Shown: positions 17,491 through 61,438 of the stretch, one piece after another
How positions within the stretch are numbered: the stretch's first letter is position 1
Layout of the letters: each line of letters starts with the position of its first letter
Program-made: the position numbers and the translations under genes
Notes under the pieces: generated by a model
The model's database searches: none
What the model was told of the DNA's origin: nothing
The model's input: the letters and a program-made list of their open reading frames with translations, nothing else
Origin: an uncultured Poribacteria bacterium
Lineage (GTDB): Bacteria > Poribacteria > WGA-4E > WGA-3G
Direction of reading: 5' to 3'
Length of the DNA: 64,000 nucleotides
NCBI GenBank assembly: GCA_951828515.1
Contig: OX639992.1
Span: 2,768,217 to 2,832,216, forward strand

Positions 17491-17551
17491 ACATTTCACC
17501 GCTACGGGGTTCAGGCTCCGTTGGGATTCACCAGAAACCGCCATGAAATGT
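17491..17551. repeat. Inverted repeat in TolC-CusB gap
   Basis: ACATTTCA (17491-17498) pairs with TGAAATGT (17544-17551) right after the second TolC stop. There is no T-run, so it is more likely a palindromic repeat than an intrinsic terminator. The rest of the 128-bp gap contains nothing recognised besides the AAAAAAGGAG site of the next gene. Confidence 0.45.
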
Positions 17552-17618
17552 AATGGTGCCCAGATGCCCATAACTAAAAAAATGCCCAGGGCAATCATTT
17601 AAAAAAGGAGTTCACAAA

Positions 17619-19589
17619 ATGTCTAAAAATTTCTGCCTCGCAACGACACTGATGATTACTTTGCTTTTTATATTCGGCTGTAATCAGCAAGAGAAAGTTG
17701 AAACGGAGCGTCATGTCAGTGAAAAACGTGAAACAATACCAGAGGATACATTAGGCATGGATGAACACGCCGATCATGCACCAGCTGAAAAACTTGAAAC
17801 AACATCGGAGGAGAACACCCGAGGCATGGATGAACACGCGGGTCATCCAGAAATGGCGATGTCTACTGACGATGGAAAACAGATTCGTTTCTGGACTTGT
17901 GTTATGCATCCGACGGTCAAAATGTCGGAACCTGGCAGTTGTCCAGTTTGTAAGATGGATCTGATTCCTATTTACGAAGGGTCAGGACTGGAATTAACTG
18001 AGCAGCAGAAAGCACTGATTCCAGTGCGTACTGAACCTGTTGTCTTCCGCGAAGTTGAACGTGAAATCCGAACTGTCGGGGTTCTTGATTATAACGAGAC
18101 GCGTATGGCTTATGCTTCAACACGAATTTCAGGATGGATTGAGGACTTACACATTGATTTTACTGGGATCAAAGTGCGTAAAGGTGATGAACTTTTGTCT
18201 ATCTACAGCCCGGAATTAGTCACAGCACAAGAAGAGTATTTGACTGCACTTAAAAGTATTGAGGAACTTCGAAACACGGAATACGCCGAACTGCGTAGAT
18301 CGGTTGAACAGACCCTTGCCGCTGCGAAATCCAAACTTGAATTGTATGGATTGACCTTAAATCAGATTGAAGATATTCGCAACCGAGGAGAAGTCAGTAC
18401 GACCTTACCGCTCTTCGCACCGAGGGCTGGGACTGTGGTTCACATGAATGTCACGCAAGGTCAACACGTGAACAAGGGTATGAATCTTTACCACATTGCC
18501 GACCTTGATAGTTTATGGATTATGGCGGACGTTTACGAGTATGAACTGCCGTGGATTTACATGGGACAGGCGGTTGAAATTACGACGCAATCCATGCCAG
18601 GGTTAGCGTTTTCTGGCAAAGTCACCTATATTTATCCGTTCTTTGACACACAAACGCGGACGCAGAAGGTCCAAATAGAAGTCCCCAATCCGACCGGACG
18701 ACTCCGTCCAGGAATGTATGTGACCCTTAAAATAAAACCGACACTTGCAGAAATCTATACCCAAGGTGCCATCTCAAAAGCCCCGTATGCGTGTCCAATG
18801 CATCCATGGATTACGTCTGAACATCCCACTGAATGTGAGATATGTGGCATGGATCTGGAACCGACACATCCCGATGTCACTGCGTCTGAAGCGGAGCGGA
18901 AATGGGTCTGTCCGATGCATCCAGAGGAGCAGTCTGATGAGTTCGGTGAATGCTCTATCTGTGGTATGGATCTCGTTGAAAGAGCAGAGATGTCTACACC
19001 CACAGAGACGGCAGCATCTACTATGTGGGTCTGTCCGATGCATCCGGAAGAACAGTCTGATGAGTTTGGTGAGTGTTCCATCTGTGGTATGGATCTCGTT
19101 GAAAAACAGTCAACAACGGGTGCACATTCTCACGCACATCATTCCATGACCGCACCTACCCTTCGTGCAGATCAGCCCCCACTGATTTTCAAGTATGAGT
19201 GCCCTGACCATCTGGATGAATATGTGACCGTCCCAGGACTATGCCCACGTGATGGGAAGCCACTTATGATGACAGGTGAGGTCTTAACTGTCCCCAAGAG
19301 TGCGGTCATTGATACCGGTTTACGGAAGATCGTCTTCGTGGATCGCGGTGAATCCGGTTATGAACAAATTGAGGTTGAGGTGGGGCCCGAAGCTTGGGGA
19401 ACATCGGAAGACTCAGAAACCAAACGCCGATATTATCCTATTGTGAGTGGACTTACCCTTGGTGATATGGTTGTCACCCATGGCAACTTCCTAATAGATT
19501 CGCAGACCCAATTAACAGGCTCCGCGTCAGGTGCCTATGGTGGGGCGCTCGGTGATGAAGAATCAACCGCGCCTGTCCATCAACATTAA
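17619..19589 (+). CDS. CusB-like RND periplasmic adaptor with five heavy-metal-binding modules
   Basis: 656 residues, with AAAAGGAG upstream and a lipoprotein signal (FIFGC, Cys21). The adaptor core is at about 135-380: barrel-sandwich halves (STRISGWIEDLHIDFTGIKV; LFAPRAGTVVHMNVTQGQHV) and a beta-barrel with LRPGMYVTLKI. Family-typical HMBD motifs CPMHP...CxxCGMDL occur at about 92-117 (CVMHP...CPVCKMDL), 389-415, 429-454 and 470-495. A variant CPDHL...CPRDGKPL lies at 525-551. Modules two to five interrupt the usual junction between the barrel and the C-terminal membrane-proximal domain (about 555-630). Modules three and four are near-identical tandem duplicates. Likely hands Cu+/Ag+ to the CusA-like pump encoded next. 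Confidence 0.92.
   Translation: MSKNFCLATTLMITLLFIFGCNQQEKVETERHVSEKRETIPEDTLGMDEHADHAPAEKLETTSEENTRGMDEHAGHPEMAMSTDDGKQIRFWTCVMHPTVKMSEPGSCPVCKMDLIPIYEGSGLELTEQQKALIPVRTEPVVFREVEREIRTVGVLDYNETRMAYASTRISGWIEDLHIDFTGIKVRKGDELLSIYSPELVTAQEEYLTALKSIEELRNTEYAELRRSVEQTLAAAKSKLELYGLTLNQIEDIRNRGEVSTTLPLFAPRAGTVVHMNVTQGQHVNKGMNLYHIADLDSLWIMADVYEYELPWIYMGQAVEITTQSMPGLAFSGKVTYIYPFFDTQTRTQKVQIEVPNPTGRLRPGMYVTLKIKPTLAEIYTQGAISKAPYACPMHPWITSEHPTECEICGMDLEPTHPDVTASEAERKWVCPMHPEEQSDEFGECSICGMDLVERAEMSTPTETAASTMWVCPMHPEEQSDEFGECSICGMDLVEKQSTTGAHSHAHHSMTAPTLRADQPPLIFKYECPDHLDEYVTVPGLCPRDGKPLMMTGEVLTVPKSAVIDTGLRKIVFVDRGESGYEQIEVEVGPEAWGTSEDSETKRRYYPIVSGLTLGDMVVTHGNFLIDSQTQLTGSASGAYGGALGDEESTAPVHQH
18903..19106 (+). 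repeat. Tandem duplication of a metal-binding module inside cusB-like gene
   Basis: Two 81-bp coding blocks, 18903-18983 and 19026-19106, encode the same 27 residues starting WVCPMHPEEQSDEFGECSIC, with only synonymous-type differences. They are 123 bp apart start to start, an exact multiple of three. This is a recent in-frame duplication that raises the number of Cys/His metal ligands in the adaptor. Confidence 0.9.
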
Positions 19590-19591
19590 GG

Positions 19592-19705
19592 AGTCGTCAG
19601 TTGTCAGTACGGATTTTTTCAAAATCCTTTCAGTCATCAGATAAGAGACGTTGTCAAACGAAAATCTCTTAACCGATAACTGATAACCGACAACCGATAA
19701 CCACT
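19592..19705. repeat. GTTATCAGTTGTCGG-family repeat before cusA-like gene
   Basis: The adaptor-pump gap is almost entirely repeat: GTCGTCAGTTGTCAG on the left, and TTAACCGATAACTGATAACC followed by GACAACCGATAACC on the right, forming an imperfect long inverted repeat. It belongs to the same family as 14458-14550 and 62444-62470. The pump start codon lies 5 bp beyond it, with no clear Shine-Dalgarno sequence. Confidence 0.75.
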
Positions 19706-19709
19706 AAAA

Positions 19710-22700
19710 ATGATTAACCGAATTATTGAAATCTGTATGAAGAATCGCCTATTGGTATTAGTTATCTTTGTTTTTGTCACAATGGCGGGATGGTGGGCAT
19801 TGAACCAGACGCCAATTGATGCTATGCCGGACATCGGCGAAAACCAGGTTATTGTCTTCGCAGATTGGCCCGGACGAAGCCCTCGAGACATTGAAGATCA
19901 AGTTATCTATCCTTTGAGCATTACCATGCTCGGGATTCCCGATGTCAAAGATGTTCGCTCAACTTCAATGTTTAGTTTCGGCTACATTAATATAATCTTC
20001 GAGGATGATGTCGATTTCTATTGGGCTCGCACCCGTGTACTGGAGCGTATGAATCTTGCACAAAAAGATATGCCAGAAGGAGTTGTGCCGGTCCTCGGTC
20101 CCGATGCAACGGGTGTCGGACAGGTGTTTTGGTATACCGTTGAGAATGGGTATTATTGCCCCAATCATCCAACAGAACGCTATGCCGAGCCGGGCACCTG
20201 TCCCGAAGATGGAGAGACGCTTATTGCCTCCAATTTGGAGCTTCATGAGCTTCGGACGCTTCAAGACTGGACGGTTCGTTACTATCTCGCCTCTGCTGAT
20301 GGCGTTTCTGAAGTCGCTTCGGTCGGCGGATATGTTAAACAGTATCAGATTGACATCGATCCAAATACCTTATTAGCGTATAACGTGCCGTTATCAATGG
20401 TTTACAACGCTGTCCGAGGGAGCAATCTTGATGTTGGCGCGAAGGTTATTGAGGAAGGCGGGATGGAGTTTCTAATTCGGGGTTTGGGGTTTATCAAAAG
20501 CATCTCGGATATAGAAAATATTGTTGTCAAGGCACATAACGGTGTACCCATCTATGTCAAAAACCTTGGAACAGTCAGCGAAGGTCCCGATTTTCGGCGC
20601 GGTGCGTTAGACAAAGCAGGTATCCCGGCAACCGGCGGGGTCGTGCTAATGCGATACGGTGACAATCCGTTACGTGTGATTGAGAACGTCAAGGCGAAAA
20701 TAGCGGAGCTCGCGCCTGGGCTTCCACCGGGAGTTCGAATCGTCTCGTTCTATGATCGGAGCCATCTCATTCACCGCGCAACGGACACACTGAAGGAAAC
20801 GCTGACGGAGGAAATCATCGTCGCGGCGGTCATTATCCTGCTTTTCTTGGGTCAAGTTTCAAGTAGCCTGATAATAGCACTTGTCTTACCGATGGGGGTT
20901 CTGCTTTCGTTTGTGGGCATGCGGATTATTGGTTTACCGTCGAACATCATGTCGATGGGCGGCATCGCCATCGCGATTGGGGTGATGGTGGATGCCGGTA
21001 TTGTCATGACAGAAAATATCACGCGACATTTACAGGAACCGCATCCAGGTGAAAGCAAACTTCAGGTTGTAACCCGTGCCGCTAAAGAGGTGGGACCCCC
21101 TATCTTCTTTGCAATGCTCATCGTTATCGTCGCCTTCATACCTGTCTTTTCTCTCACCGGTCAAGCAGGTAAACTCTTCAAACCGCTTGCCTATACAAAA
21201 ACTTTCGCTATGCTTGGTGCAGCCCTCATAGCGATTAGTCTGGTGCCAGTTTTAGCGTCATTTCTACTTGCAGACCCAACCCGTACCCGAACGGGTATGG
21301 TTTCCAAACGAATAGCACAATTCTTCGCGCTACTCAGCTTGCCTCTAAGAAAATTAGCCGATGGGATTACATGGGTACTCAAAACCGGTTATCGTCCGAT
21401 TATTCGGTTGGCTGTCAAAAATATTTGGACGAAGCTCGCTGTTGTTTTCTTGGCGATGCTTATTTTTATCGCAAGCATACCGCTGACCCCTTTCTATAAG
21501 AATATTGGGCAGGAATTCATGCCGCCACTTAACGAAGGGGCACTACTGTTTATGCCGGTGCTGCTTCCGGGTGCCTCAATTACGCAAGCAAAAGATGTGA
21601 TGGCGAAGCAAGATTTGATTATGAATCGATTTCCAGAGGTTTCACTTGTCGTAGGAAAATTGGGACGAGCGACAACAGCCACCGATCCTGCCCCAATTGG
21701 TATGTTTGAAACTATTGTCAATATAGTTGACCCAGTGGAGTGGCCCCGACGAGCGGTTAAACGCAATTCAACGGAGGAGCTTGTGTCCGATCTCGTCCAA
21801 CGCTTAAAACGCGCAGGGCTGATAAGCGAGGAACATGCAAGCCATATCAATACCGATTTTCTGGCGGACATCGTCGCAGCGACCATAAAACGGTTTGATA
21901 CCTTAGCAACAACATATCACAATTCTTATTTGTCAGTTGACGAGCGCGAACAATTGTATCGCATCTGGTTATTACGAATCCTTTTAGAAGAACTCCTCGC
22001 TGAAAAGCGGATGGGCGGGATGGGATTGGAACACGTTAAAATAGGTGAATCTGAGACTGAGGCGAAACTTCATCAGATCGCCGAAGAGATTGAGCCTATC
22101 CTCAAGCATAAGACTTATTTCCGGACCAAGAACCGCAGCGAACTCATTGCCGAACTGACGGAGGCTACCCGAATGCCGGGGGTTTCACCAATTATGACGC
22201 AGCCCATACGTAATCGCGTTGATATGCTCGCAACTGGTATACAAACCCCAATCGGAATTAAGGTGTTCGGTAAAGACCTTGCCAAAATTGAGGAGATTGC
22301 GGTCCGCATTGAGCAGGAACTCCTCAAACTTGAGGGCGCACGGGGTCCCTATGCCGAGCGCATTGGAAATAAGCCGTATCTTGAATTTCACATCGATCGA
22401 GAGGAAGCCGCTCGCTACGGCATCCAAATCCGGGCGGTGCAGCAAATTATCATGACTGCGATCGGTGGTATGAATTTGACGCATACTGTTGAAGGGCGGG
22501 AGCGATTTCCGATTCGTATCCGTTACATGAGAGAATTGCGGGATAATATTGAAGCACTTAAGCGGGTCCTCGTGCCGTCACCAAAAGGACTACATATTCC
22601 ACTTGAGCAACTCGTAAAAATCGAAAGGCGGCCCGGTCCCGCGAAGATCGCAAGCGAAAATACACTCCTTTTTTCCCGAGTTTTTTGTGATGTGGATGTT

Positions 22701-23378
22701 GATACTATTGGATTGGTTGACTTTGTCACATTCGCCCAAAAAACGCTTGACGAGAAAATTAAGCCAACCTTGCCGCAAGGCTATTTCTACGCTTTTAGTG
22801 GGCAGTACGAGGCTGAGCTTGAAGCTCGAGATCGGTTAGCAATCGTCGTACCAGTGTGTATCGCCCTCATCTTCATGTTGCTATACCTCCAGTTCAAGTC
22901 GCCTTCTGCGATGTTTTCAATTTTCCTTGCGATTCCTTTTGCATTCATCGGAGGCATGTGGATGCAGTGGTTGATGGCGTACGTGCCAGAGGCACTCGGC
23001 GGCGGTTACGCCATTAAATACAGTACAGCGGTGTGGGTGGGATATATAGCCTTATTTGGCATAGCTGTCGAAGATGGAATCGTCTTAATTGAATACTTAC
23101 TGGAACGCGTCCGGGGTGGCGAGCCTATTGACGAAGCGGTGATTAATGCTGGCTTGTTGCGCGTCCGACCTATTATCATGACCACAGCAACCACAATCTT
23201 GGCGTTATTACCAATCATGTTAGCAGAAATCAGTACTACGACTGGCGCGGAATTGATGAAACCTATCGCGGTCCCTACCTTCGGCGGAATGGTCTCGGCA
23301 ACGGTGGCTAACCTTATTTTGGCACCTGTGTTATTTTCCCTCTTCTATCCTATTGAGCATTGGATTCGCCAACGGTAG
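19710..23378 (+). CDS. CusA/CzcA-family heavy-metal RND efflux pump
   Basis: 1222 residues, slightly longer than the usual 1020-1060. A typical start (MINRIIEICMKNRLLVLVIF) leads into twelve predicted membrane helices in two halves. Heavy-metal RND signatures are the TM4 motif GGIAIAIGVMVDAGIVMTEN (about 415) and the late GIAVEDGIVLIEYLLERVR. In the first porter domain, where relatives run directly from GQVFWYTVE to LRTLQDW, about 30 extra residues (147-178) carry YYCPNHP...AEPGTCPEDGETL, an HMBD-like zinc-ribbon word resembling the fifth module of the adaptor. Additional length lies in the second periplasmic half (about 690-800). It exports Cu+/Ag+ or a similar cation using the proton gradient through the TolC duct. 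Confidence 0.93.
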   Translation: MINRIIEICMKNRLLVLVIFVFVTMAGWWALNQTPIDAMPDIGENQVIVFADWPGRSPRDIEDQVIYPLSITMLGIPDVKDVRSTSMFSFGYINIIFEDDVDFYWARTRVLERMNLAQKDMPEGVVPVLGPDATGVGQVFWYTVENGYYCPNHPTERYAEPGTCPEDGETLIASNLELHELRTLQDWTVRYYLASADGVSEVASVGGYVKQYQIDIDPNTLLAYNVPLSMVYNAVRGSNLDVGAKVIEEGGMEFLIRGLGFIKSISDIENIVVKAHNGVPIYVKNLGTVSEGPDFRRGALDKAGIPATGGVVLMRYGDNPLRVIENVKAKIAELAPGLPPGVRIVSFYDRSHLIHRATDTLKETLTEEIIVAAVIILLFLGQVSSSLIIALVLPMGVLLSFVGMRIIGLPSNIMSMGGIAIAIGVMVDAGIVMTENITRHLQEPHPGESKLQVVTRAAKEVGPPIFFAMLIVIVAFIPVFSLTGQAGKLFKPLAYTKTFAMLGAALIAISLVPVLASFLLADPTRTRTGMVSKRIAQFFALLSLPLRKLADGITWVLKTGYRPIIRLAVKNIWTKLAVVFLAMLIFIASIPLTPFYKNIGQEFMPPLNEGALLFMPVLLPGASITQAKDVMAKQDLIMNRFPEVSLVVGKLGRATTATDPAPIGMFETIVNIVDPVEWPRRAVKRNSTEELVSDLVQRLKRAGLISEEHASHINTDFLADIVAATIKRFDTLATTYHNSYLSVDEREQLYRIWLLRILLEELLAEKRMGGMGLEHVKIGESETEAKLHQIAEEIEPILKHKTYFRTKNRSELIAELTEATRMPGVSPIMTQPIRNRVDMLATGIQTPIGIKVFGKDLAKIEEIAVRIEQELLKLEGARGPYAERIGNKPYLEFHIDREEAARYGIQIRAVQQIIMTAIGGMNLTHTVEGRERFPIRIRYMRELRDNIEALKRVLVPSPKGLHIPLEQLVKIERRPGPAKIASENTLLFSRVFCDVDVDTIGLVDFVTFAQKTLDEKIKPTLPQGYFYAFSGQYEAELEARDRLAIVVPVCIALIFMLLYLQFKSPSAMFSIFLAIPFAFIGGMWMQWLMAYVPEALGGGYAIKYSTAVWVGYIALFGIAVEDGIVLIEYLLERVRGGEPIDEAVINAGLLRVRPIIMTTATTILALLPIMLAEISTTTGAELMKPIAVPTFGGMVSATVANLILAPVLFSLFYPIEHWIRQR

Positions 23379-27136: not shown

Positions 27137-28348
27137 ATGCGAAACACAAAACACAAACTTTTCAAAGATAAGAGATTGCGTCACTTGCACGACGAGTTGA
27201 ATATCATTGGTGTTGTGCGAAACCACTTCCTTGCCGTGTGTATGCGATATTACCGTCGGTATGGGAAAGGCGTATCGTATCGGAAAATGTCTTTCCATTT
27301 GACGAAGCTCAAGAAACTTGAGAAGTATCAACATTGGAATATCCCTTACGCATGGGCTTTGCAAAATATGCTGAAACGCTTGGCACAAAGTTTTCGTGAA
27401 ATGAAAACACTCGGTAGAGGTCACCCGCAGTTCAAGCCATGTAAAAAACATAAAGGTATGACGTTTGACAGCACACAAGCACCCCTCGAAAAAGTGTTGG
27501 ATAAACAAAAGCATAAAAGAAATCACCCGACGTATAAAATCCGATTAAATGGACGCTGGTATCGCTTTGCCTTACACCGTCGCATAGAAGGCGAAATCAC
27601 ACAAGTTCAGGTTACACGGGACGCCCTCGGAGACGTGTATATCACGCTCACTGAAGATTACTCGGAAGTCAAATATGAACCCAAGACAGGTAAAGCTGAA
27701 GGGTTCGACTTTGGGATCAAAGACTTCCTGACTGGCAGTGACGGTGAACGATATGGATCTCCAATGTTCTACACACAGAACGCTGATAAGTTGGCGAAAG
27801 CACAAAAGGCACATTCTCGGAAAGTCAAAGGTTCTCATAACAGAGAACGCGAACGCAAGAACGTTGCCCGTATCCATAAGAAAACTGCCAATCAAAGAGC
27901 AGACCACCATTGGAAACTTGCGATAGACTTGTGCCGTCAGTTCGATATTCTGTTCTTTGAAGACCTTAACCTTAACGGTATGAAACACTTGTGGGGTAAA
28001 CACGTCTCCGATCTTGCTTTTGGTGAGTTCCTTGAGAAACTCAAACACCAAGCCAGAAAACGGATACGTTCTGTACTAAAAATCAACCGCTGGTCTCCGA
28101 CAAGTAAGTGCTGTTCTGTGTGTCAACATAAAAATGAAATCTTAACCTTAGCAGTCCGTCAATGGCAGTGTCCGAAGTGTCATACACACCTCGACCGCGA
28201 CCAGAACGCTGCTATGAATATTCTCAAGGAAGGGATAGCTTCCTTTGGATTAGGCGTTGTAAGACCTATTGTTTTGTTCAATCAAATCGTAGGCGTCACC
28301 GTTGAAGCGAACAGTCCGCTTCTGAATTCCACAAATGCTTCTGCTTAA
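27137..28348 (+). CDS. tnpB: RNA-guided endonuclease TnpB
   Basis: 403 residues, the usual TnpB length. The RuvC-like triad is complete: Asp191 in GFDFGIKDF, Glu275 in LFFEDLNLNGM, and Asp355 in HLDRDQNAAMNIL. The zinc ribbon C-S-V-C ... C-P-K-C is intact (Cys326/329 and Cys345/348, with an extra Cys325). The N-terminal half has the helical/WED-like region (FRKMSFHLTKLKKL-like pattern, WYRFALHRRI). TnpB cuts DNA guided by an RNA derived from the element's 3' end and acts to retain the transposon. Nothing suggests inactivation. The neighbouring sequence just beyond 28380 would serve as the guide. Confidence 0.93.
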   Translation: MRNTKHKLFKDKRLRHLHDELNIIGVVRNHFLAVCMRYYRRYGKGVSYRKMSFHLTKLKKLEKYQHWNIPYAWALQNMLKRLAQSFREMKTLGRGHPQFKPCKKHKGMTFDSTQAPLEKVLDKQKHKRNHPTYKIRLNGRWYRFALHRRIEGEITQVQVTRDALGDVYITLTEDYSEVKYEPKTGKAEGFDFGIKDFLTGSDGERYGSPMFYTQNADKLAKAQKAHSRKVKGSHNRERERKNVARIHKKTANQRADHHWKLAIDLCRQFDILFFEDLNLNGMKHLWGKHVSDLAFGEFLEKLKHQARKRIRSVLKINRWSPTSKCCSVCQHKNEILTLAVRQWQCPKCHTHLDRDQNAAMNILKEGIASFGLGVVRPIVLFNQIVGVTVEANSPLLNSTNASA

Positions 28349-35006: not shown

Positions 35007-36947
35007 CTATGGCCAGAAATTATACATCGGTTGTTGCGTCACCACACTCACAAGACTCCAGATACCCCCGACAGTGAAATCACCTAACATCAATCCAATC
35101 GCGAACATTACCAACTGCTGCGATGCCCGCGGTCCACTGATCTTCAAGATCGCCCACTTGATAATCGAACTCACCAGCATACAACTCCACAAATACCGCA
35201 TGCCCCAATCACTGGAGACGACAAATCCGATCGGATGAAATGGCCACCAGAAGAAACGCGCCCGCATAAACATCAAGAGCGTCGAAAAGAGTAAGCCAAA
35301 CGCGATACCGCCAGTCGCATAGAGATTCGGTTCAGTAGGGTAATAGATCCAACGCTGGAGCCCGTTGAAAACGCGTCCACCGAACCCTGTTGACCAACCG
35401 CTGCCACCGCCCATGTTCAAAGCACCATAGGTATAGAAGATATAAAGGATAACGCCGAACACCATCACGGCAGCGAACGCCGAAACCCCTAACAGCGCGA
35501 AGAACAACCGTCCCGGTGCAATTCCAGAGCGTTCCGAGAGTTTAAAACCCTCTAATTGGTGCGGCATCGGATTGCTCGTGTAACTCCGATTAAACCAACG
35601 GTAGAGCGTTAGAGCAACGAGGTTGTTTGTACCCAACATCCGCGTGCCGAAACCGTCGACGAGGATATGATGGTTCGGCATGTTTTCCATCGCATGCACA
35701 GGGAATCCCTGCTCTGCGCGCATCCGTGTGAGCACTAAGACGATGATAAAATAGATTGCAAAAAACAACGGAATTAACCAGAGAGACATACCGATGCGCT
35801 TGGAGAAAATAAAAAGTATTGCGAGTCCGATAACGATACCCCAGAGTGCTAACCTGTAGGAAATCGGTTCGTTGGCATCCTCACCCGTGTGGTGACGTGC
35901 AATACGGAGGACACCGCGAAAGTGACGTAGGTTCAGGACTACAACAGAAATGAAAATCCCGATGGCAGCACCGAAGCATTGCCTATCAATATATGGGAAT
36001 CCCGGTAGACTGGACAAGCCAGCGGCACTTGCTAAGACTAATTGTGCCTTGTAGAAAATAAAGAAGAACCAACTGGAGAACGATAAGTCAAGTGGCATCA
36101 GTAATCCAAGACCGATAACGAATGGATAATAAGACATACTAATACCACCGATAGCGTTCCACGGCTTTTCTGTGAACAGGTGCCCAAACCCGCGCCAGCC
36201 ACCGATCCGCTTAATCGGTAAGGTCGGAAGTGTCGGGTACAGAAAACTCAACCCGTTAAGAATCGCTATAGATGCCGCGATTCCGAATCCGAGCCATGTA
36301 ATACGGTGCGAAAACAGTGATTTTGTGTTGTGGGTGACATGAAACGCAATCTGCGTGATCGGATAGGCAAGCCGTTCGCGTTCCACCCACTGTTTCCGCA
36401 AGATAACGTTGATACACAACATCACAAGGACCAGGACTGTCATGAACCCTGCCCAAGATAAGATTGGCACTATCCATACACCGATTATATCTACAATAGA
36501 GAGACTTGATTCTCCTGTATAGTAACCCGTCAGTGCCTTTGAATCGTCGACAAGAAGCCATCTCGGAAGGTAATCATAGAAGAGTTGTTTCCATTCGTTT
36601 TCGGGGGTTGCGAAATAGAAGGCGTGTCCGACGGTCGTGACGAGAATCGTCATCAGCGTAATGGAGGGGAAAGCGCAAGCCGTGCTGAGCAGGATGTATA
36701 TCGTGAGGAGCTCCGCATCGGTGAATAAGCGGCGACGGACCGAAAGATTGAGAAGTGTGAACGCAAACACGACGAAGACGACATTGTAAAACGGCACGGC
36801 GTAGGTATTCAGCGCATAACCGACAAGCCCGACTTCACCCGCAATGATCCAATAAAAATTAAACGGAATCAGCACGAGCGTAATGGCAATAGACTTCCAT
36901 GTAACACCGTGCGATTTCGGGCGTTCATCGTTTCTCATCTGATTCAC
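35007..36947 (-). CDS. Large multi-pass membrane protein, DUF6785-like
   Basis: 646 residues with about 14-16 predicted membrane segments, such as IAITLVLIPFNFYWIIAGEV (about 20-39) and LLTIYILLSTACAFPSITLM (about 80-99). The sequence pattern (VERERLAYPITQIAFHV; RAEQGFPVHAMENMPNHHIL) matches a family common in Planctomycetes and Poribacteria, resembling OPT-type transporters, usually catalogued as DUF6784/DUF6785. Substrate unknown. GTG 36947 (or ATG 36938) overlaps the stop of the upstream nucleotidyltransferase gene by 4 bp, a coupling that is hard to explain functionally. Confidence 0.75.
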   Translation of the reverse strand: MNQMRNDERPKSHGVTWKSIAITLVLIPFNFYWIIAGEVGLVGYALNTYAVPFYNVVFVVFAFTLLNLSVRRRLFTDAELLTIYILLSTACAFPSITLMTILVTTVGHAFYFATPENEWKQLFYDYLPRWLLVDDSKALTGYYTGESSLSIVDIIGVWIVPILSWAGFMTVLVLVMLCINVILRKQWVERERLAYPITQIAFHVTHNTKSLFSHRITWLGFGIAASIAILNGLSFLYPTLPTLPIKRIGGWRGFGHLFTEKPWNAIGGISMSYYPFVIGLGLLMPLDLSFSSWFFFIFYKAQLVLASAAGLSSLPGFPYIDRQCFGAAIGIFISVVVLNLRHFRGVLRIARHHTGEDANEPISYRLALWGIVIGLAILFIFSKRIGMSLWLIPLFFAIYFIIVLVLTRMRAEQGFPVHAMENMPNHHILVDGFGTRMLGTNNLVALTLYRWFNRSYTSNPMPHQLEGFKLSERSGIAPGRLFFALLGVSAFAAVMVFGVILYIFYTYGALNMGGGSGWSTGFGGRVFNGLQRWIYYPTEPNLYATGGIAFGLLFSTLLMFMRARFFWWPFHPIGFVVSSDWGMRYLWSCMLVSSIIKWAILKISGPRASQQLVMFAIGLMLGDFTVGGIWSLVSVVTQQPMYNFWP

Positions 36948-37870
36948 GGGGTTTCGGTTAGAAAAGCGATGAATGTATCTAACTCTTCAGAAACGGTTGC
37001 AAATAGTTCCCCAATCGGTTTTGCCTGTTCCTCGGCTTTTTCGTAAATCAGCTCGTCGCCATAAATGTTATTGACTTTGTGTCGGTAATCTAAAAGTTCT
37101 TTTAATCTCGGCAAGGTTTTCTCGGAAATCACGGGAGGGCGCTCTGGTCGTCGTTCCGCCATTTGTTCAAGTAGATCATTATGCCAGCGACTCCCTCTCG
37201 GAATTTTCATATCTATCTCACGGGCAATTCGCTCGAAAATTCTCTCAATGCCGCTGTAAACTTCAGCGAGATCAGAAGCAATTGTTTTTTCTACATATTT
37301 TTTGTGGTTAGCGGCAATGATTTCAATATCTTGTAAGGCATTCGCGATGCCTCGGACAGTTCGTTCTATTTTTGTGCGTTCATCAGAGATACGTTGAATA
37401 AGTTCGTCGCGATTCACTGTGTAAGTTTCTCCATTTTCTGTACCCGATGTGTTCATCAATGTGAGAATGTCCGTTCCTGCTTTATCAATAGGGATAGCTT
37501 GGCTTAGAACCCGCTCACGGAATAAACTGTTAATGGATTTAAAATTGATAATATCTATTTTAAACTCAGGATCCAAGCCTTTTGTCTCCCAGAGCGCGTC
37601 CAGGCATTTGTTATATGAGACCCCCCAAACAACGATATCAATATCTGAGTTTTGGGTGAACCGTTTCGGTTCAGTGACGGAGCCGAAGACGGCAACTTTC
37701 GTTGCACCAAAGTCTCGATAAAGGACAGTGGCGAGACGACGCGCTGTCTCCCATGCGCGTTGAAGCAGCTCTTCGTCAACTTGACGATTTTCCCATTGGC
37801 GTTTGAGGTTTTCTCTGCATTCCGCCAGTTCTGAGGGAGACATCTCTCTTGTCGTAGGTGCGCTACGCAT
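36944..37870 (-). CDS. Nucleotidyltransferase-HepT-like fusion protein, paralog C
   Basis: 308 residues. Same architecture as the two paralogs at 31877-33737: leader (TREMSPSELAECRENL), nucleotidyltransferase motif GSVTEPKRFTQNSDIDIVVWG, HepT-like helical half, and the RNase motif altered to R-HKVN-N-I-Y. It is more diverged than A and B, which resemble each other. Separated from them by a Uma2 gene, the SH3-like gene and the DUF6785-like gene, to which its stop is fused by a 4-bp overlap. Confidence 0.75.
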   Translation of the reverse strand: MRSAPTTREMSPSELAECRENLKRQWENRQVDEELLQRAWETARRLATVLYRDFGATKVAVFGSVTEPKRFTQNSDIDIVVWGVSYNKCLDALWETKGLDPEFKIDIINFKSINSLFRERVLSQAIPIDKAGTDILTLMNTSGTENGETYTVNRDELIQRISDERTKIERTVRGIANALQDIEIIAANHKKYVEKTIASDLAEVYSGIERIFERIAREIDMKIPRGSRWHNDLLEQMAERRPERPPVISEKTLPRLKELLDYRHKVNNIYGDELIYEKAEEQAKPIGELFATVSEELDTFIAFLTETP

Positions 37871-47111: not shown

Positions 47112-49556
47112 ATGGCTATTGAATACGCGGGTCCCTTTGATACATCGGCGATTCTACCAGATGTTGCCCGCGAAATTGAAATTTATGAGATACAACTTGG
47201 TCGGGTCCAAGCGGGCCAAGTGGAAGAGACGCTGTTTACCGAATTTAGACTCCGGCATGGGGTTTACGGGCAGCGCGATGATAGATCGCAGATGATCCGT
47301 GTTAAAATCCCGTTCGGCGGACTCACAGCAGTACAACTTGAAATGCTGGCGGATGTTGCCGAAGAATTTTCGGATAATATCATCCACATCACCACCCGCC
47401 AAGATGTACAATATCACTACGTAGACATCACCAACACGCCGGAACTCATGCGTCGCCTCGCAAGCGTAGACATTACCACCAAAGAAGCGTGTGGTAATGT
47501 CGTGCGAAATGTTACGGCATGTCCTCTCAGCGGTGTGTGCCAAGATGAGACATTTGATGTAACACCCTATTCTCAGGCATTGTCAGCGTTCCTCTTAGGA
47601 CACCCGGACGCGCAGGATTTTGGTCGTAAGTTCAAAATTGCGTTTTCTGGATGTGAAGAACACGCTTGCGGTTTAGCGAATATGCACGACATCGGTGCAG
47701 TCGCTGCCGTTAAAGAGGTAGATGGTGAAGTCAAACGCGGTTTTAAACTTTATGTCGGTGGTGGACTCGGCGCAGTCCCGCATCAGGCGAAAGTGTTTGA
47801 TGATTTCGTCTCCGCAGAGGAACTCCTGCCGATTTCACAATCAATTTGCAGAGTTTTCACCCGTTTAGGTGAACGCCGGAATCGGAATAAGGCGCGTTTA
47901 AAATTTGTGATCGCCAAATACGGCATTGAAGAATTTCGTAGACAGGTACTTGAAGATCGGGCTACGCTACGCCACGATCCGGAATGGACTGCGTATCTGG
48001 ACAATCTTGACGCTTACAACGAAAGTCCTCTCAAGGCACCGACACAGCTTAATGGTGCTTCAAAACCTGAAGGGTTTGAAGAGTGGTATCAATCGAATGT
48101 GCAGTTACAGAGTCAACCCGGTTATGCTTTCGTGACGATTACATTGCCGCTTGGTGATATTACTGCAGATCAGACGCGTGTTTTGGCAGATATTTCGCGG
48201 AAATATGTGAAAGACACCATCCGTGCTACAGTCGAACAGAACATCGTTCTCCGCTGGGTAACAATGACGGATCTCCCCGCACTTTATCGCGAACTGAGGG
48301 TGATCGGTCTCGGTGACCCGGGGGCAGAATCTATGGTTGATATTACCGCTTGCCCGGGGACTGATTCCTGTAAACTCGGTGTTTCTTCTTCTCGCGGTCT
48401 GGCAGCGCACCTGCGAAACTATTTCATTGAAACCGGTGTGCAGAATGAAATCAAAGACTTTCGGATTAAGATTAGTGGTTGCCCCAATTCTTGCGGACAG
48501 CACCACATCGCGAATATTGGTTTCTTCGGCTCCTCACGTCGGATGGGTGAACATATCGCGCCTTACTATCAGGTGCTACTCGGTGGACACATGGCCGAGA
48601 ACGCCAGTTCTTACGGACTTGCCAATGGAAAAATCCACGGCAAATATATTCCGGCGTTCATTGAGGAATTAACCGGTAAGTACACGGCGGAACGCAATGA
48701 GGAAGAGTCCTTCACTGATTACGTCGCACGGCTCGGTAAGGCGGAAATCAAGCAGATCTTATCCAAATACGATAAGATCCCGTCTTATGAGGAAGCACCA
48801 GAGTTCTATGTGGACACCGGCGACACGAAAGATTACCAACTCAAGACAGGTGTCGGTGAATGTGCAGGAGAGGTCGTAGCACTCGTTTCTATGAAATTGG
48901 AAGAGGCAGATCGGCTTATCTATGAATCCGGTTTGAACTTGGAAAAGGGTGAATATCAGGATTCCGCGGAGTTGGCTTTTGATGCAATGATCAGAGCCGC
49001 AGACGGACTTCAGACAACGGTAGGTTTGCAATATATTGACGACGCGACCACCGTCAACGAATTCCGCACGCATTTCTTTGAACCCGGTAACTTCTTCCCC
49101 GGTTACGGTGCGCACATCTTCAAAGCAACAGAGGAAGATGCTTCTACGTTTGACCACGAGTTGGCACACCGTCGCGTTGAAGAAGCGACCCTCTTCGTTG
49201 AAGAATCGCATAACGTCTATGGACGCATGCGGATTAAGCAGGAGGAAGAGGAAGAGAGCCGTCGCAAAAAACGTCGCTCACGACCGGCGCGGAAACCACG
49301 GGTTGTCAAGAAAACGAAGCCCGTTGAAGAAATCGTGGATAGCCTCGATCTTAAAGGAGTCGCCTGCCCGTTCAACTATGTCCAAGCAAAGATTCGGTTG
49401 GAAACGATGGATCTCGGTCAACTTCTCGAAGTCACCATCGACGATGGCGAACCCATTGAGAACGTACCGAAGAGCCTCACCAACGATGGACATGAGATCG
49501 TTGACACCAAGAAGGTCGGACAGCACTACCGACTCACCGTCCGGAAGGGTGAGTAG
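47112..49556 (+). CDS. Nitrite/sulfite reductase fused to HEPN-like and TusA domains
   Basis: 814 residues with AAGGAG upstream. Residues 1-530 are the two-fold siroheme reductase body: half one has ACPLSGVC and GCEEHAC, half two has ACPGTDSC (Cx5C) and SGCPNSCGQHH (Cx3C), the canonical [4Fe-4S]-siroheme ligands. Reduction of sulfite to sulfide or nitrite to ammonia is thus likely. Residues about 600-700 are a helical HEPN-like module seen in some reductases of this type, followed by a Lys/Arg-rich linker. Residues 746-814 are a TusA/SirA-type sulfur carrier, with Cys752 in GVACPFNY (CPxP altered to CPFN). The fusion points to direct handling of the sulfur product. Confidence 0.9.
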   Translation: MAIEYAGPFDTSAILPDVAREIEIYEIQLGRVQAGQVEETLFTEFRLRHGVYGQRDDRSQMIRVKIPFGGLTAVQLEMLADVAEEFSDNIIHITTRQDVQYHYVDITNTPELMRRLASVDITTKEACGNVVRNVTACPLSGVCQDETFDVTPYSQALSAFLLGHPDAQDFGRKFKIAFSGCEEHACGLANMHDIGAVAAVKEVDGEVKRGFKLYVGGGLGAVPHQAKVFDDFVSAEELLPISQSICRVFTRLGERRNRNKARLKFVIAKYGIEEFRRQVLEDRATLRHDPEWTAYLDNLDAYNESPLKAPTQLNGASKPEGFEEWYQSNVQLQSQPGYAFVTITLPLGDITADQTRVLADISRKYVKDTIRATVEQNIVLRWVTMTDLPALYRELRVIGLGDPGAESMVDITACPGTDSCKLGVSSSRGLAAHLRNYFIETGVQNEIKDFRIKISGCPNSCGQHHIANIGFFGSSRRMGEHIAPYYQVLLGGHMAENASSYGLANGKIHGKYIPAFIEELTGKYTAERNEEESFTDYVARLGKAEIKQILSKYDKIPSYEEAPEFYVDTGDTKDYQLKTGVGECAGEVVALVSMKLEEADRLIYESGLNLEKGEYQDSAELAFDAMIRAADGLQTTVGLQYIDDATTVNEFRTHFFEPGNFFPGYGAHIFKATEEDASTFDHELAHRRVEEATLFVEESHNVYGRMRIKQEEEEESRRKKRRSRPARKPRVVKKTKPVEEIVDSLDLKGVACPFNYVQAKIRLETMDLGQLLEVTIDDGEPIENVPKSLTNDGHEIVDTKKVGQHYRLTVRKGE

Positions 49557-55876: not shown

Positions 55877-57385
55877 GTGCGGAGGAATACGAAGTTGCGG
55901 TTGAATCGTCGAATTATCCCTGGGTATACGACCACCCGTTTAATACTCGTTTACTTCATCGTCGGATTGGGCACGCTCGTATTTGGGTTCTTCCATTATA
56001 TCCAGCAGATTTCTCGACTGAACGCGGATATAGAATCCCAGATAGACCTTTTCGCCGATCTGGCAGCGGAAATCCCCGGCGTGGAAAACCGAGGATTGCA
56101 ACAGAAGTTAATTATGATCGTCAGAAAGTCATTCGCTGAAGACAGATCACGTACGTTCTCGTTTATCATCACGGATGCACGCGGAAACGTCTTAATTACG
56201 CGAGGGGTTGACCCACAATTAGACGCGAAGATCGACAATTTGGATATCAATGTCAACGAAAATGAGAGTATATCGTTAACACAAAATGAGCACGCTTTGT
56301 TACAATCAACATTAGCGCGCATGAAAAAGAAACATCTGCCTCGTGAAATACACATACTCCTTGAAAACAGGCAGTTGAAGGGGTATATTTACTATGGTGA
56401 TGCCGCACCGAGTGAAATGGCACACCTGCCTCTTGTAATAACTGATACCACGGGTACACCTCAGAAATGGCAGATTTGGGGTGACGTTATTACTGCAGAT
56501 CAGGCAACTGCGGAGGAACAGGAACGAGCGAAAATTTTCATTCAGAACGCACCAGCGTCCTCTGTGATTGAAACAACACCGAAATGGCACAAAGGCTACT
56601 TCTATTATGAAAGTAAGCCGTACTATGGGTTAGTAGTGCCTCTTATAGCCCCGGTGGTCCTATTAGTATTTGGAACTGTCTGCTTCCTTGTCTATCAACG
56701 GATAAAGTCTTATGAACACTCGGCAATCTGGGGAGGCTTAGCCAAAGAGACTGCGCATCAACTCGGAACACCTACCTCGTCGCTGTTGGCATGGACAGAA
56801 CTGCTGCATGAACGAAGTAAAGAAAAAAATGATGACGCACTCGCTGAACTCTCCGAAAGTATGAGAAACGATCTGGAGCGTCTACAGAAAACAACGGCGC
56901 GCTTCGGTATGATTGGCACGCAGCCTCCACTTACCGAAGTCAACATGAATGAAGTGTTTGAGGAAGTCCGAGCATATTTTGAAAAACGGCTGCCGCATAT
57001 TGGTCGACGCGTCGAAATCCGATTGAGACTGCATGAAACACCCCCTATACTCGCAAACGCGCAATTGTTGCACTGGGTGTTTGAAAACCTAATTCGTAAT
57101 TCGTTGGATGCAATGGATAAAGCGGACGGATGGATCCAGATTGAACCAACGTATGACAAACGATACAGCGATGTTGTTATCCAGTATGCCGACAATGGAA
57201 GCGGGATCACCCGCGAAAATCAACGAAAGATCTTTGAACCGGGGATGTCTACAAAGGCACACGGGTGGGGACTCGGATTGACTGTCATACAGCGGATCAT
57301 CCGTGAATACCATCACGGAAGCATCCGTATGATTAAAACGAGTCCTGACGGAACAACTTTTGAAATTCGACTGCCAGTCGCATAG
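55877..57385 (+). CDS. Sensor histidine kinase, PorY-like
   Basis: 502 residues. Two membrane helices (about 21-40 and 252-273) flank a periplasmic sensor of some 210 residues. Then the H-box ETAHQLGTPTSSLLAW (His294), N-box NLIRNSLDAM, G1 DNGSGI and G2 GWGLGL. The HxLGTP H-box is the type seen in kinases partnering PorX-like regulators. A GTG start at 55877 is used; a TTG at 55895, 9 nt after GGAGG, is also possible. Followed by a receiver-PglZ gene, its likely substrate. Confidence 0.85.
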   Translation: MRRNTKLRLNRRIIPGYTTTRLILVYFIVGLGTLVFGFFHYIQQISRLNADIESQIDLFADLAAEIPGVENRGLQQKLIMIVRKSFAEDRSRTFSFIITDARGNVLITRGVDPQLDAKIDNLDINVNENESISLTQNEHALLQSTLARMKKKHLPREIHILLENRQLKGYIYYGDAAPSEMAHLPLVITDTTGTPQKWQIWGDVITADQATAEEQERAKIFIQNAPASSVIETTPKWHKGYFYYESKPYYGLVVPLIAPVVLLVFGTVCFLVYQRIKSYEHSAIWGGLAKETAHQLGTPTSSLLAWTELLHERSKEKNDDALAELSESMRNDLERLQKTTARFGMIGTQPPLTEVNMNEVFEEVRAYFEKRLPHIGRRVEIRLRLHETPPILANAQLLHWVFENLIRNSLDAMDKADGWIQIEPTYDKRYSDVVIQYADNGSGITRENQRKIFEPGMSTKAHGWGLGLTVIQRIIREYHHGSIRMIKTSPDGTTFEIRLPVA

Positions 57386-57513
57386 TCCATATTAACAGCC
57401 GTTGTGGGCAAAATAATTGCCTGGGCATTTTTCCTACTTCCGCTGAGGAGAGAACTTTCACTCGCGTTAATTGGGCACGATGTCGCACCTGAGCAGCTTT
57501 TGAAAACTTACGT

Positions 57514-59082
57514 ATGTCACAGACACACCAAATCTTATGGATTGATGATGAAATAGAAGCGTTGCAACCGCATATTCTTGTGCTACGCGACCGAGGGTAC
57601 GCGGTCACACCCGTGACAAATGGTGAAGACGGCATCGCGCTTCTCACGCGCGGTGATACGCAGTACAGTGCTATCCTACTTGACCAGGTTATGCCCGGTA
57701 AAGATGGAATGGCAACGCTTGATGCAATCCGTACCATCAATGCGCAAATCCCAGTCATCCTCGTTACCCAATCCAGTGATGAACAATTTGTTGAGGTTGC
57801 TCTCGGCAAGCAGGTAACCGATTTCTTAGTGAAGCCGATCGGTGTAGCCCAGATCGTTTCAACACTAAAGCGTATCCTTGATCAGCCGCAGATCGTCGTA
57901 AATCAGATTCCGAATCGGTACACGACAGATTTTAACGCTATCCGCGCCATGAAGGACTCGTCACCGAGTTGGCAAGACTGGGTCAATATCTATGTGAAAC
58001 TATTACAATGGGATCTGGTATCTGAAAAGTTAGCCGAGGGTGGGTTAGAAGAAACACATCTCGCACAGAAGAAAGAGTGCAATACCGAATTTTCTGACTT
58101 TGTCGCGACGCATTATCCTGATTGGGTCGCAGGTAGCTCAGACGCACCACCCTTGTCGGTCAACGTCCTCGACCAGCATGTTATCCCTCAACTTCAAGAT
58201 GGAAAATCTGTTTATTTTATTGTGGTTGACTGCTTCCGATTAGATCATTGGTTGGCAGTGGAATCACTCTTGTACCCTTATTTCTCTATCGAACGTCAAT
58301 ATAGTTTTTCAATCCTACCGAGTGCGACGATGTACGCACGAAATGCCCTTTTCAGCGGCTTGTTCCCAATAGAGATCGCCGAACGCTATCCACAGTACTG
58401 GCAGGAAGAATCTGATGGGGACACGAGTACAAATCGGTACGAACGCCAATTCCTCGAAGAACATCTGAAGCGCAGGGGTATCAAGCTGAAGCCCGGAATC
58501 CAGTACTTCAAGATTTTTGACGCTCGGGGTGGCAACACCTACAAAAAACGGGTCGCCGCGAACACACGCGTGAGTCTCTCGGCACTGGTTATCAATTTCA
58601 TTGACATCTTGACCCACCAGCGCTCACAATCCGATGTTCTGCAGCAGCTTGCCCCTGATGAATCCGCTTTCCGAGCGTTGGCACGCTCATGGTTCTCGCA
58701 TTCGGTACTGTTCGATATTTTACGCATTATTGCGGCACAAAACGCAACTGTAGTCCTCACGAGCGATCATGGCTCTGTCTTTTGTAACCGAGCAACCCGC
58801 GCTTACGGTAATCGTGAAACGACCACCAGCCTTCGGTTTAAAATCGGTGCTAACTTGGGATGCGAAGAAGGTGAAGCGGTATATCTCCGAAACCCAAAGG
58901 AATATCGGCTACCGGCGGAAAACACAAGCAAGGACTACATTCTCGCGAAAGACGATTATTATTTCGTCTATCCGAACGATTTTTATAAATATAAACGGCA
59001 GTTTCAAGGAGGGTTCCAGCACGGTGGTATCTCGATGGGTGAACTCATAACGCCTGTCGTAACGCTAACGCCGCGGCTGTAA
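57514..59082 (+). CDS. porX: Response regulator with PglZ phosphodiesterase domain, PorX-like
   Basis: 522 residues. Receiver domain 1-125: ILWIDDEIEALQPHI with acidic Asp11/Asp12, phosphoacceptor Asp57 in LLDQVMPG, Thr in LVTQSSDE and Lys in FLVKPIG. A linker helix leads to an alkaline-phosphatase-superfamily PglZ domain (about 205-522), with FIVVDCFRLDHW, ILPSATMYARNALFSGLFP, TSDHGS and FQHGGISMGEL metal-binding positions. This receiver-PglZ architecture defines PorX, which in Bacteroidetes controls the type IX secretion system and cleaves cyclic oligonucleotides. Gene name used for architecture only; no T9SS gene is in the window. Confidence 0.88.
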   Translation: MSQTHQILWIDDEIEALQPHILVLRDRGYAVTPVTNGEDGIALLTRGDTQYSAILLDQVMPGKDGMATLDAIRTINAQIPVILVTQSSDEQFVEVALGKQVTDFLVKPIGVAQIVSTLKRILDQPQIVVNQIPNRYTTDFNAIRAMKDSSPSWQDWVNIYVKLLQWDLVSEKLAEGGLEETHLAQKKECNTEFSDFVATHYPDWVAGSSDAPPLSVNVLDQHVIPQLQDGKSVYFIVVDCFRLDHWLAVESLLYPYFSIERQYSFSILPSATMYARNALFSGLFPIEIAERYPQYWQEESDGDTSTNRYERQFLEEHLKRRGIKLKPGIQYFKIFDARGGNTYKKRVAANTRVSLSALVINFIDILTHQRSQSDVLQQLAPDESAFRALARSWFSHSVLFDILRIIAAQNATVVLTSDHGSVFCNRATRAYGNRETTTSLRFKIGANLGCEEGEAVYLRNPKEYRLPAENTSKDYILAKDDYYFVYPNDFYKYKRQFQGGFQHGGISMGELITPVVTLTPRL

Positions 59083-59300: not shown

Positions 59301-60881
59301 ATGGAAAAGGAGATACTTATTTCTGATGATGAGTATGAAACACGCTGTGCGGTACTTGACGAGGGGGTGCTGAATGAAATTTACATTGAACGGAAAGCAG
59401 CAGCGCAAACATTGGGGAATCTCTACAAAGGACGCGTTGAGAACGTACTACCCGGAATGCAGGTAGCATTCGTTGACATCGGATTGGACCGGCATGCCTT
59501 TTTACATATTTCCGATCTCAAATATGAGCACGCTGACGAAGATGAGGATGAAAATGGGAAGCAGAACGGAGACCGAAGGTCCAACAAAAATGCGGCTGTA
59601 TTGGACCTGAAAGGAAAGCAGTCCAAGCAAACACGCGGTGGACGCGGGTTCCCATTTCTCATAAGTGACCTCATTTCAAAGAAGCAGGAACTCCTCGTTC
59701 AGGTTGGCAAGGAACCTATCGGGACAAAGGGAGCACGGGTTACCAGTAACATCACACTTCCCGGACGTTATGTCGTCTACATGCCCAATTCCTCGAATAT
59801 TGGCGTATCACGACGCATTGAGTCTGCCACTGAAAGAGACAGACTACGGAACATGGCAAAGGCAGTCAAAGCCGACGTTGAAGGTGGATTTATCATTCGT
59901 ACTGCCGCTGAAGGGTTGAACGAAACCGAGTTCACAGCCGAAATCCGGTATCTTATCGATCAATGGAAACAGGTACGCAAACGCGCAGACAGAAAATCCG
60001 CACCGAGTCTCGTGAGCAGAGACCTCAGTTTCACCAATAGAATCGTCCGGGATATGCTCACGAAGGAGGTCACGCAACTGTTTATCGATTCAGAGACGGG
60101 TTACAAAGAGACGATGGAATATGTTTCCTCTGTCATGCCCGATCTGCAATCTCGGGTCTCCTTCTATCGGGAGGATCCAACTCTCTTCGATGCTTACGGT
60201 GTTGAACGCGCACTCAAGGAGGCGCTCAGTGAGAAAATTTGGCTCAAATGTGGAGGACATATTATCATCCAACAGACTGAAGCCATGGTCTCGATTGATG
60301 TCAACACTGGACGATTCGTTGGAAAATCTGATCCAGATAACACGATTCTCAGTGCTAACCTTGAGGCTGTTGAGGAGGTTGTCCGCCAAATTCAATTACG
60401 GGATTTGGGCGGGATTATCGTCGTTGATTTTATTGATATGGAAGAGGCGTCGCACCGGAAACGGGTCTTTAAAATGCTACAGGAAGCACTCCGGAAGGAC
60501 CGTGCCCGCACAAATATCCTGCATTTTTCGGATTTAGGACTCGTCGAAATGACACGCCAACGTACCCGTCCGAGCCTCTCTACCCTGCTGATGGAGGAGT
60601 GTCCGTACTGCGATGGACATGGCACTGTTCTATCCGTCGAAACCGTCGTCATTCAGTTGTTGCGTGCGATAAAGATGGCGCATAAACAGACGCGTCAGTC
60701 CCAATTACGTGTTATCGCTAATGATTATGTCGTTTCGCATATAAAGTCGCAGATGTCGAGTAAATTGCGGGAACTTAAGAAGTTATTAAAATTAGATCTT
60801 ATTCTGGAACCGGATGCCGACTTGCACCTCGAAGATTATCGAATCTTCGTTGGAAAAGGTGAAGAATTATTTCTTGATTAA
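59301..60881 (+). CDS. rng: Ribonuclease G/E family protein
   Basis: 526 residues, the length of RNase G with a small N-terminal insertion. The S1 domain (YKGRVENVLPGMQVAFVDIG; HAFLHISDL) is interrupted by a charged insert (about 77-118, EDEDENGKQNGDRR and KQSKQTRGGRG). The catalytic part has SIDVNTGRFVG, GIIVVDFIDME (Mg2+ Asp) and the Zn-link cysteines CPYC. Cleaves single-stranded RNA 5'-end dependently in rRNA and mRNA processing. Followed by rplU-rpmA, an order common in bacteria. Confidence 0.95.
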   Translation: MEKEILISDDEYETRCAVLDEGVLNEIYIERKAAAQTLGNLYKGRVENVLPGMQVAFVDIGLDRHAFLHISDLKYEHADEDEDENGKQNGDRRSNKNAAVLDLKGKQSKQTRGGRGFPFLISDLISKKQELLVQVGKEPIGTKGARVTSNITLPGRYVVYMPNSSNIGVSRRIESATERDRLRNMAKAVKADVEGGFIIRTAAEGLNETEFTAEIRYLIDQWKQVRKRADRKSAPSLVSRDLSFTNRIVRDMLTKEVTQLFIDSETGYKETMEYVSSVMPDLQSRVSFYREDPTLFDAYGVERALKEALSEKIWLKCGGHIIIQQTEAMVSIDVNTGRFVGKSDPDNTILSANLEAVEEVVRQIQLRDLGGIIVVDFIDMEEASHRKRVFKMLQEALRKDRARTNILHFSDLGLVEMTRQRTRPSLSTLLMEECPYCDGHGTVLSVETVVIQLLRAIKMAHKQTRQSQLRVIANDYVVSHIKSQMSSKLRELKKLLKLDLILEPDADLHLEDYRIFVGKGEELFLD

Positions 60882-61073: not shown

Positions 61074-61099
61074 TTAAGTAGAAAGGAGTGATATGTAAA

Positions 61100-61438
61100 A
61101 TGTATGCAGTCTTTGCGAGCGGCGGAAAGCAGCATCGGGTAGAAATAGGAAATCTGATCGATGTTGAAAAACTCGAGGCAGAGGTCGGTGACAGTGTCAC
61201 ATTCTCATCCGTTTTGGCTGTCGCTGACGATGATGGTCAGTTGCAAGCCGGCTCGCCCTATCTTGACAATACTTCAGTTACAGCCGAGGTGGTTCAACAG
61301 GCACGCGGAAAAAAGATGGTTGTGTTCAAATCGAAACGCCGTAAAGGTTATAAACGTAAGTTAGGGCACCGTCAATCATTTACACGCGTGAAAATTACCG
61401 CTATTGGCGCGGTGGAGGAACAATCTGATGGCTCATAA
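61100..61438 (+). CDS. rplU: 50S ribosomal protein L21
   Basis: 112 residues from ATG 61100, with AAAGGAG about 11 nt upstream. [18 protein letters not shown] start, [20 protein letters not shown] basic core and FTRVKITAI end are characteristic of L21. Follows the consensus promoter and overlaps rpmA by 11 bp, so the two are translated together. Confidence 0.97.

Follow-up and report, generated by a model that had tools for sequence, protein, structure and literature searches.

A PorX-type response regulator and its neighboring sensor kinase in Poribacteria: sequence evidence for a putative link to type IX-like protein export

The kinase–PorX gene pair

The DNA analyzed here, hereafter the window, is a stretch of 64,000 nucleotides from an uncultured Poribacteria bacterium (assembly GCA_951828515.1, contig OX639992.1, positions 2,768,217 to 2,832,216). 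It encodes a PorY-like sensor histidine kinase and, directly downstream, a response regulator of the PorX type, here called PorX1. Such a sensor–regulator pair has so far been known as the switch for the type IX secretion system (T9SS) of Bacteroidetes, in which PorX acts on the PorL/GldL motor and on por gene expression. Both open reading frames lie at exactly the coordinates (55877-59082) at which an initial annotation, made from the sequence alone, had placed a kinase–regulator pair. The genome that contains the window is a single-contig assembly of 5.85 Mb with 95% completeness. The pair has the following features (positions in the window):

55877..57385, + strand: PorY-like sensor histidine kinase gene, 502 amino acids from GTG (open reading frame; HATPase_c; orthologs in PorX-bearing genomes of other phyla)
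55928..56704, + strand: two hydrophobic segments (residues ~18-42 and ~247-276) with a predicted extracytoplasmic sensor region of ~200 amino acids between them (hydropathy; AlphaFold2)
56756..56758, + strand: codon of the phosphoacceptor His294 in the H-box ETAHQLGTP (ortholog alignment)
57059..57379, + strand: HATPase_c domain, residues 395-501, with intact N, G1, and G2 boxes (Pfam)
57514..59082, + strand: PorX1 gene, 522 amino acids from ATG (NF052313, 588 bits; solved PorX structures, E ~1e-117)
57514..57879, + strand: PorX receiver domain with D12, E13, phospho-D57, T85, F104, and K107 (Pfam; residue mapping)
57880..58134, + strand: three-helix bundle that forms the linker domain (limits derived from the alignment with solved PorX)
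58135..59076, + strand: PglZ phosphodiesterase domain (Pfam; residue mapping)

PorX1 scores 588 bits on the T9SS_RR_PorX model NF052313, whose cut-off is 300 bits, and contains the Pfam domains Response_reg (residues 7-118) and PglZ (232-426). Over its full length it can be aligned with the solved structures of PorX from Flavobacterium johnsoniae (8ted/8p6f, E ~1e-117) and Porphyromonas gingivalis (7pv7). Its residues were mapped onto those described for F. johnsoniae PorX, and the limits of the linker were taken from the same source (PMC10951265). The initial annotation had considered the receiver and metal-binding residues to be intact, and this mapping bears it out: the receiver residues listed above, all seven zinc ligands and nucleophile residues of the PglZ domain (D239, T272, D364, H368, D418, H419, H503), and the substrate-cleft residues R276, K333, and N361 are present. 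Loss of the metal-binding residues, or a tree position among unrelated PglZ proteins, had been named as findings that would speak against the assignment; in our phylogeny the regulator groups with PorX of other phyla. Together with the model score and the structural alignment, this position upholds the identification as PorX, and PorX1 is a member of the known PorX family from a new phylum.

According to the genome comparison, the kinase–PorX pair is phylum-wide in Poribacteria and occurs in essentially every genome. PorX was found in 82 of 85 Poribacteria genomes, including all those of good quality (56/56), and the kinase gene lies directly 5' of it in all Poribacteria loci of the contig set compared and in most basal lineages, genome G011 being an exception. 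Across dozens of Poribacteria loci the identity to the window's copy ranges from 98% to 62%; these are its nearest relatives and all belong to Poribacteria, in agreement with the host that had been suggested from the sequence. More distant homologs (41–45% identity) are encoded by Cloacimonadota, Ignavibacteria, LCP-89, and two bins labeled Armatimonadota, and PorX appears to be an old and widespread regulator. The PorX sequences of the two Armatimonadota-labeled bins (L081, L082) fall inside the Cloacimonadota clade, which could reflect transfer or mislabeled bins.

The sensor kinase

The kinase probably starts at the TTG codon at 55895, which would give a protein of 496 amino acids, because the sequence GGAGG at 55881-55885 is kept in close orthologs and because TTG is the only in-frame start in several orthologs. 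The protein has the two membrane segments and the intact H, N, and G boxes expected of a PorY. Its HxLGTP box, noted already in the initial annotation, reads ETAHQLGTP with H294, and HQ(L/F)GTP is kept in 14 of 15 kinase orthologs, including those of Ignavibacteria and Cloacimonadota; the match in LCP-89 has HDMGTP. An alpha/beta fold is predicted for the sensor region between the hydrophobic segments (AlphaFold2 kinase model, mean pLDDT 74). The fold search with this model returned generic kinase cores only, none of which names the sensor fold.

Ten of the 11 PorX-bearing genomes of other phyla (Cloacimonadota, Ignavibacteria, and Armatimonadota-labeled genomes) encode a single best ortholog of the kinase, scoring 161–196 bits, with the next kinase at ~48–69 bits. 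The remaining genome, LCP-89, has no clear ortholog (93 bits). From these Ignavibacteria and Cloacimonadota orthologs, rather than from a comparison with Bacteroidota PorY, we infer the name PorY for the Poribacteria kinase.

A T9SS-like gene set in the same genome

The initial annotation had viewed the pair as lying outside an evident Bacteroidetes context and had proposed a search for T9SS genes. This search revealed that the same genome encodes SprA/Sov-, PorV-, and PorU-like proteins as well as 72 C-terminal sorting domains, whereas the models for PorL, PorM, and PorN, run without a positive control, remained silent. PorX identity, intact residues, and the Poribacteria host are supported; a setting without T9SS is not. 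Two of the genes found are (positions in the contig of the window's genome):

2369869-2376732, - strand: SprA/Sov-like gene (L117:11870-18733; TIGR04189)
2324393-2330731, - strand: PorU-like C25 sortase gene (L124:10394-16732; profile match)

The SprA/Sov-like protein (2287 amino acids) matches TIGR04189 collinearly with 141.6 bits and an E-value of 1.7e-41, below the curated cut-off of 200 bits. Relatives of this protein occur nearly throughout the phylum (84 of 85 genomes), and the 14 control genomes were silent. Searches of solved structures with the single sequence and with a profile gave no match for this protein, and its identification therefore rests on the TIGR04189 model. No other T9SS genes were found clustered at the SprA locus. 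One Poribacteria copy (L162; genome G006, contig C30) reaches 508 bits and is far nearer to the Bacteroidota model than those of other Poribacteria; it stems from a metagenome-assembled genome of 64% completeness and might represent a transfer or mis-binning.

Seven PorV-family proteins of the window's genome score above the cut-off, one of which matches PorV of the SprA complex (PDB 6h3i, 4e-11). The PorU-like protein (2112 amino acids), whose gene adjoins a PorV-family gene, scores 395 bits at a curated cut-off of 420; its best PDB match is PorU (6za2, 4e-37), and the GHG...C dyad is kept. All 72 sorting domains exceed the cut-off, and in each of the 15 proteins inspected the domain is located at the very C-terminus.

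Descriptions of the T9SS come only from Bacteroidota and a small number of related phyla of the FCB group (PMC11285876; PMC4793230), and our search of the open-access literature retrieved no report of this system in Poribacteria. Sorting-domain proteins were already reported from sponge-associated Poribacteria by Kamke et al. (2014), who detected none of the Por structural genes and did not settle how these proteins are exported (PMC3909097). The SprA-, PorV-, and PorU-like genes may represent previously unrecognized T9SS parts in this phylum and, together with PorXY, are concrete candidates for answering that question.

A second PorX with a degenerate receiver

Elsewhere in the same contig a second PorX, PorX2, is encoded:

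~4480303-4481958 (~4.48 Mb; L119:10304-11959): PorX2 gene, 551 amino acids, with a degenerate receiver and an intact PglZ site

In the PorX tree, the PorX2 copies form one clade within Poribacteria (support 100/100), and PorX2 is, as judged from its sequence, the product of a duplication inside this phylum. Within the window's family, 53 of 59 genomes encode it, as do 11 of 12 genomes of families f2, f3, and f8. Its locus is conserved, with an oxidase gene, presumably GlcE-like, on one side and a DsbD gene on the other. In families f2 and f3 (L206-L209) a Nudix hydrolase gene is located just 5' of PorX2; it is absent from the f1 locus.

PorX2 lacks the intact receiver phosphorylation site expected of a PorX. 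In most copies the phospho-Asp is replaced by Asn or Ser; family f1 has Met, Thr, Ile, or Arg in place of the receiver Lys, and the Asn of the substrate cleft is changed to Asp or Gly. Intermediate states occur: PorX2 of family f3 has lost the phospho-Asp only, and that of f2 retains it with a changed metal-binding Asp. The full-length copies show no variation at any of the seven zinc-site residues, and the catalytic domain is under strong purifying selection. Omega, the ratio of replacement to silent change, is ~0.07 in the PglZ domain of PorX2 versus 0.20 in its receiver; for PorX1 it is ~0.04–0.05 in both domains, a value based on few pairs with usable silent distances. The AlphaFold2 model of PorX2 is of low confidence (pLDDT 59) and was not relied on; its nearest folds are PorX. 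In genome G012, the PorX2 copy (L211:1306-2922) is interrupted by an internal TGA.

PorX of F. johnsoniae retains phosphodiesterase activity and zinc-dependent dimerization when its phospho-Asp is exchanged (D54A; PMC11320123). By analogy, PorX2 is plausibly an active phosphodiesterase that works independently of phosphorylation and might be gated by zinc or a partner. It would then be a natural counterpart of the laboratory mutant and could help to separate the role of PorX phosphorylation from its enzymatic role.

Proposed function and alternative explanations

On balance we favor, with moderate confidence, the interpretation that PorY and PorX1 are an orthologous two-component pair of Poribacteria which controls a T9SS-like export pathway, and that PorX2 acts as a phosphorylation-independent phosphodiesterase. 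The connection to export is drawn from the T9SS gene set that shares the genome and from the known role of PorXY. In this scheme, an envelope signal would cause autophosphorylation of the kinase at H294, and the phosphoryl group would be transferred to D57 of PorX1. PorX1 would then dimerize, and its zinc-containing PglZ site would hydrolyze a nucleotide diester. Finally, the phosphorylated dimer might adjust how strongly the T9SS-like export pathway for sorting-domain proteins is expressed, or how active it is, at the surface of the sponge symbiont. A more specific version, which we hold to be somewhat more doubtful than probable, is that export employs SprA, PorV, and PorU with dozens of surface cargo proteins, dispenses with the canonical PorL/M motor, and is governed jointly by a phospho-switched PorX1 (with PorY) and a lineage-specific, phosphate-refractory PorX2 with a phosphodiesterase under strong selection.

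Several observations weigh against a role in export. The PorX locus contains no T9SS genes, and its conserved downstream neighbor is an RNase E/G family gene, followed by rplU (positions in the window):

59301..60881, + strand: RNase E/G family gene (TIGR00757, 508 bits; synteny)
61088..61438, + strand: rplU, ribosomal protein L21 (domain match; synteny)

Moreover, PorX and SprA are both near-universal in the phylum, so that their co-occurrence within it proves no link. The known direct target of PorX in the motor also appears to be missing or unrecognizable in the window's genome, in which the PorL/GldL, PorM/GldM, and PorN/GldN models gave no match at E <= 1, in a search without a positive control. 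The GldL model was equally silent in PorX-bearing Cloacimonadota and Ignavibacteria and yielded one weak match below the cut-off in Poribacteria genome G002. Absence of the motor is accordingly no more than a possibility.

The most serious alternative is that a true PorXY pair has been rewired to RNA or oligonucleotide turnover, with PorX1 removing short linear or cyclic oligonucleotides beside RNase E/G and secretion not being its target. It would fit the gene order kinase–PorX–RNase E/G, which is retained over most of the phylum, the lack of matches to the PorL and PorM models, the Nudix hydrolase gene next to PorX2 in two families, and the hydrolysis of linear and cyclic oligoadenylates by P. 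gingivalis PorX in vitro (PMC11320123). Among the Poribacteria loci compared, RNase E/G is usually found 3' of PorX; it does not follow PorX in G008, however, and no such gene can be seen next to PorX in G001, G002, and G011. RNase E/G and rplU form a common housekeeping neighborhood in bacteria, in which PorX may be a mere bystander. With the T9SS-like gene set also present in the genome, we regard such rewiring as unlikely, if worth bearing in mind. The same in vitro substrates (PMC11320123) would suit a PorX that serves as regulator or off-switch of CBASS-like cyclic-oligonucleotide signaling. The search for cyclic-oligonucleotide synthases that the initial annotation had suggested detected SMODS-type CD-NTase domains sporadically in the phylum, in 35 of 85 genomes, and none in the window's genome. 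Given this distribution, CD-NTases cannot be the general source of PorX substrates, and in view of the far wider occurrence of PorX (82/85) a CBASS-like role is quite improbable. Signaling through nucleotide hydrolysis as such, proposed in the initial annotation, is possible in Poribacteria.

The two other alternatives concern the identity of the proteins. If PorX2 were a decaying pseudogene and not a functional second enzyme, its degenerate receiver and the TGA-interrupted copy of G012 would be readily explained. The retention of PorX2 in most genomes of four families (53/59 and 11/12), the low omega of its PglZ domain, the invariant zinc site of the full-length copies, and the conserved neighbors make decay very improbable. 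The regulator itself might only resemble PorX and be an unrelated PglZ protein, for instance of the BREX type, for which a weak score of 95 bits on the BREX-3 PglZ model could be cited. This score is far below the cut-off of that model (250 bits) and BREX-type identity was rejected; in view of the 588 bits on the PorX model, the full-length alignment with PorX structures, and the tree, the chance that PorX1 is an unrelated protein is negligible.

Other genes of the window

Apart from these genes, the window encodes a metal efflux operon (14568-23378, + strand), in which two outer-membrane efflux genes in succession are accompanied by genes for an AcrB-type pump and for a CusB-like adaptor that carries four copies of a heavy-metal-binding domain. 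A TnpB/IS605 OrfB-type gene (27137-28348, + strand) contains a Cas12f1-like TNB domain. In the product of 36944-37870 (- strand), a Polbeta-type nucleotidyltransferase domain and a HepT-like domain follow each other in one chain. Finally, 47112-49556 (+ strand) encodes a sulfite/nitrite reductase of 814 amino acids with a TusA sulfurtransferase domain at its C-terminus.

Comparison with known systems

PorX1 shares with PorX of P. gingivalis and F. johnsoniae the order of receiver, three-helix bundle, and PglZ domain, the phospho-Asp site, the two-zinc site with its catalytic Thr, and the Arg, Lys, and Asn of the cleft. It differs in the aromatic switch residue, which is Phe104 in Poribacteria PorX1 and Tyr in these two proteins, and the dimer-interface residue L113 is mostly Ser in Poribacteria. 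Poribacteria PorX adjoins the gene of its kinase, whereas PorX is an orphan in P. gingivalis (PMC4800418). Furthermore, it has no recognizable PorL partner, and its host lies outside the phyla with a described T9SS. Like PorY of P. gingivalis, the presumed partner of PorX in that organism (PMC4800418), the Poribacteria kinase has two membrane segments ahead of C-terminal kinase domains; the presumed kinship of the two is drawn through the orthologs of PorX-bearing Ignavibacteria and Cloacimonadota. With the BREX PglZ phosphatases PorX1 has in common a domain of the PglZ/alkaline-phosphatase superfamily, to which it adds an N-terminal receiver, and it stays at 95 of the 250 bits required by their model. 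As regards the T9SS, the scores of the SprA- and PorU-like proteins are below the curated cut-offs, PorL, PorM, and PorN were not detected, and no T9SS genes are clustered with the SprA-like gene; what the window's genome has in common with this system is the presence of SprA-, PorV-, and PorU-like proteins and of sorting domains in one genome.

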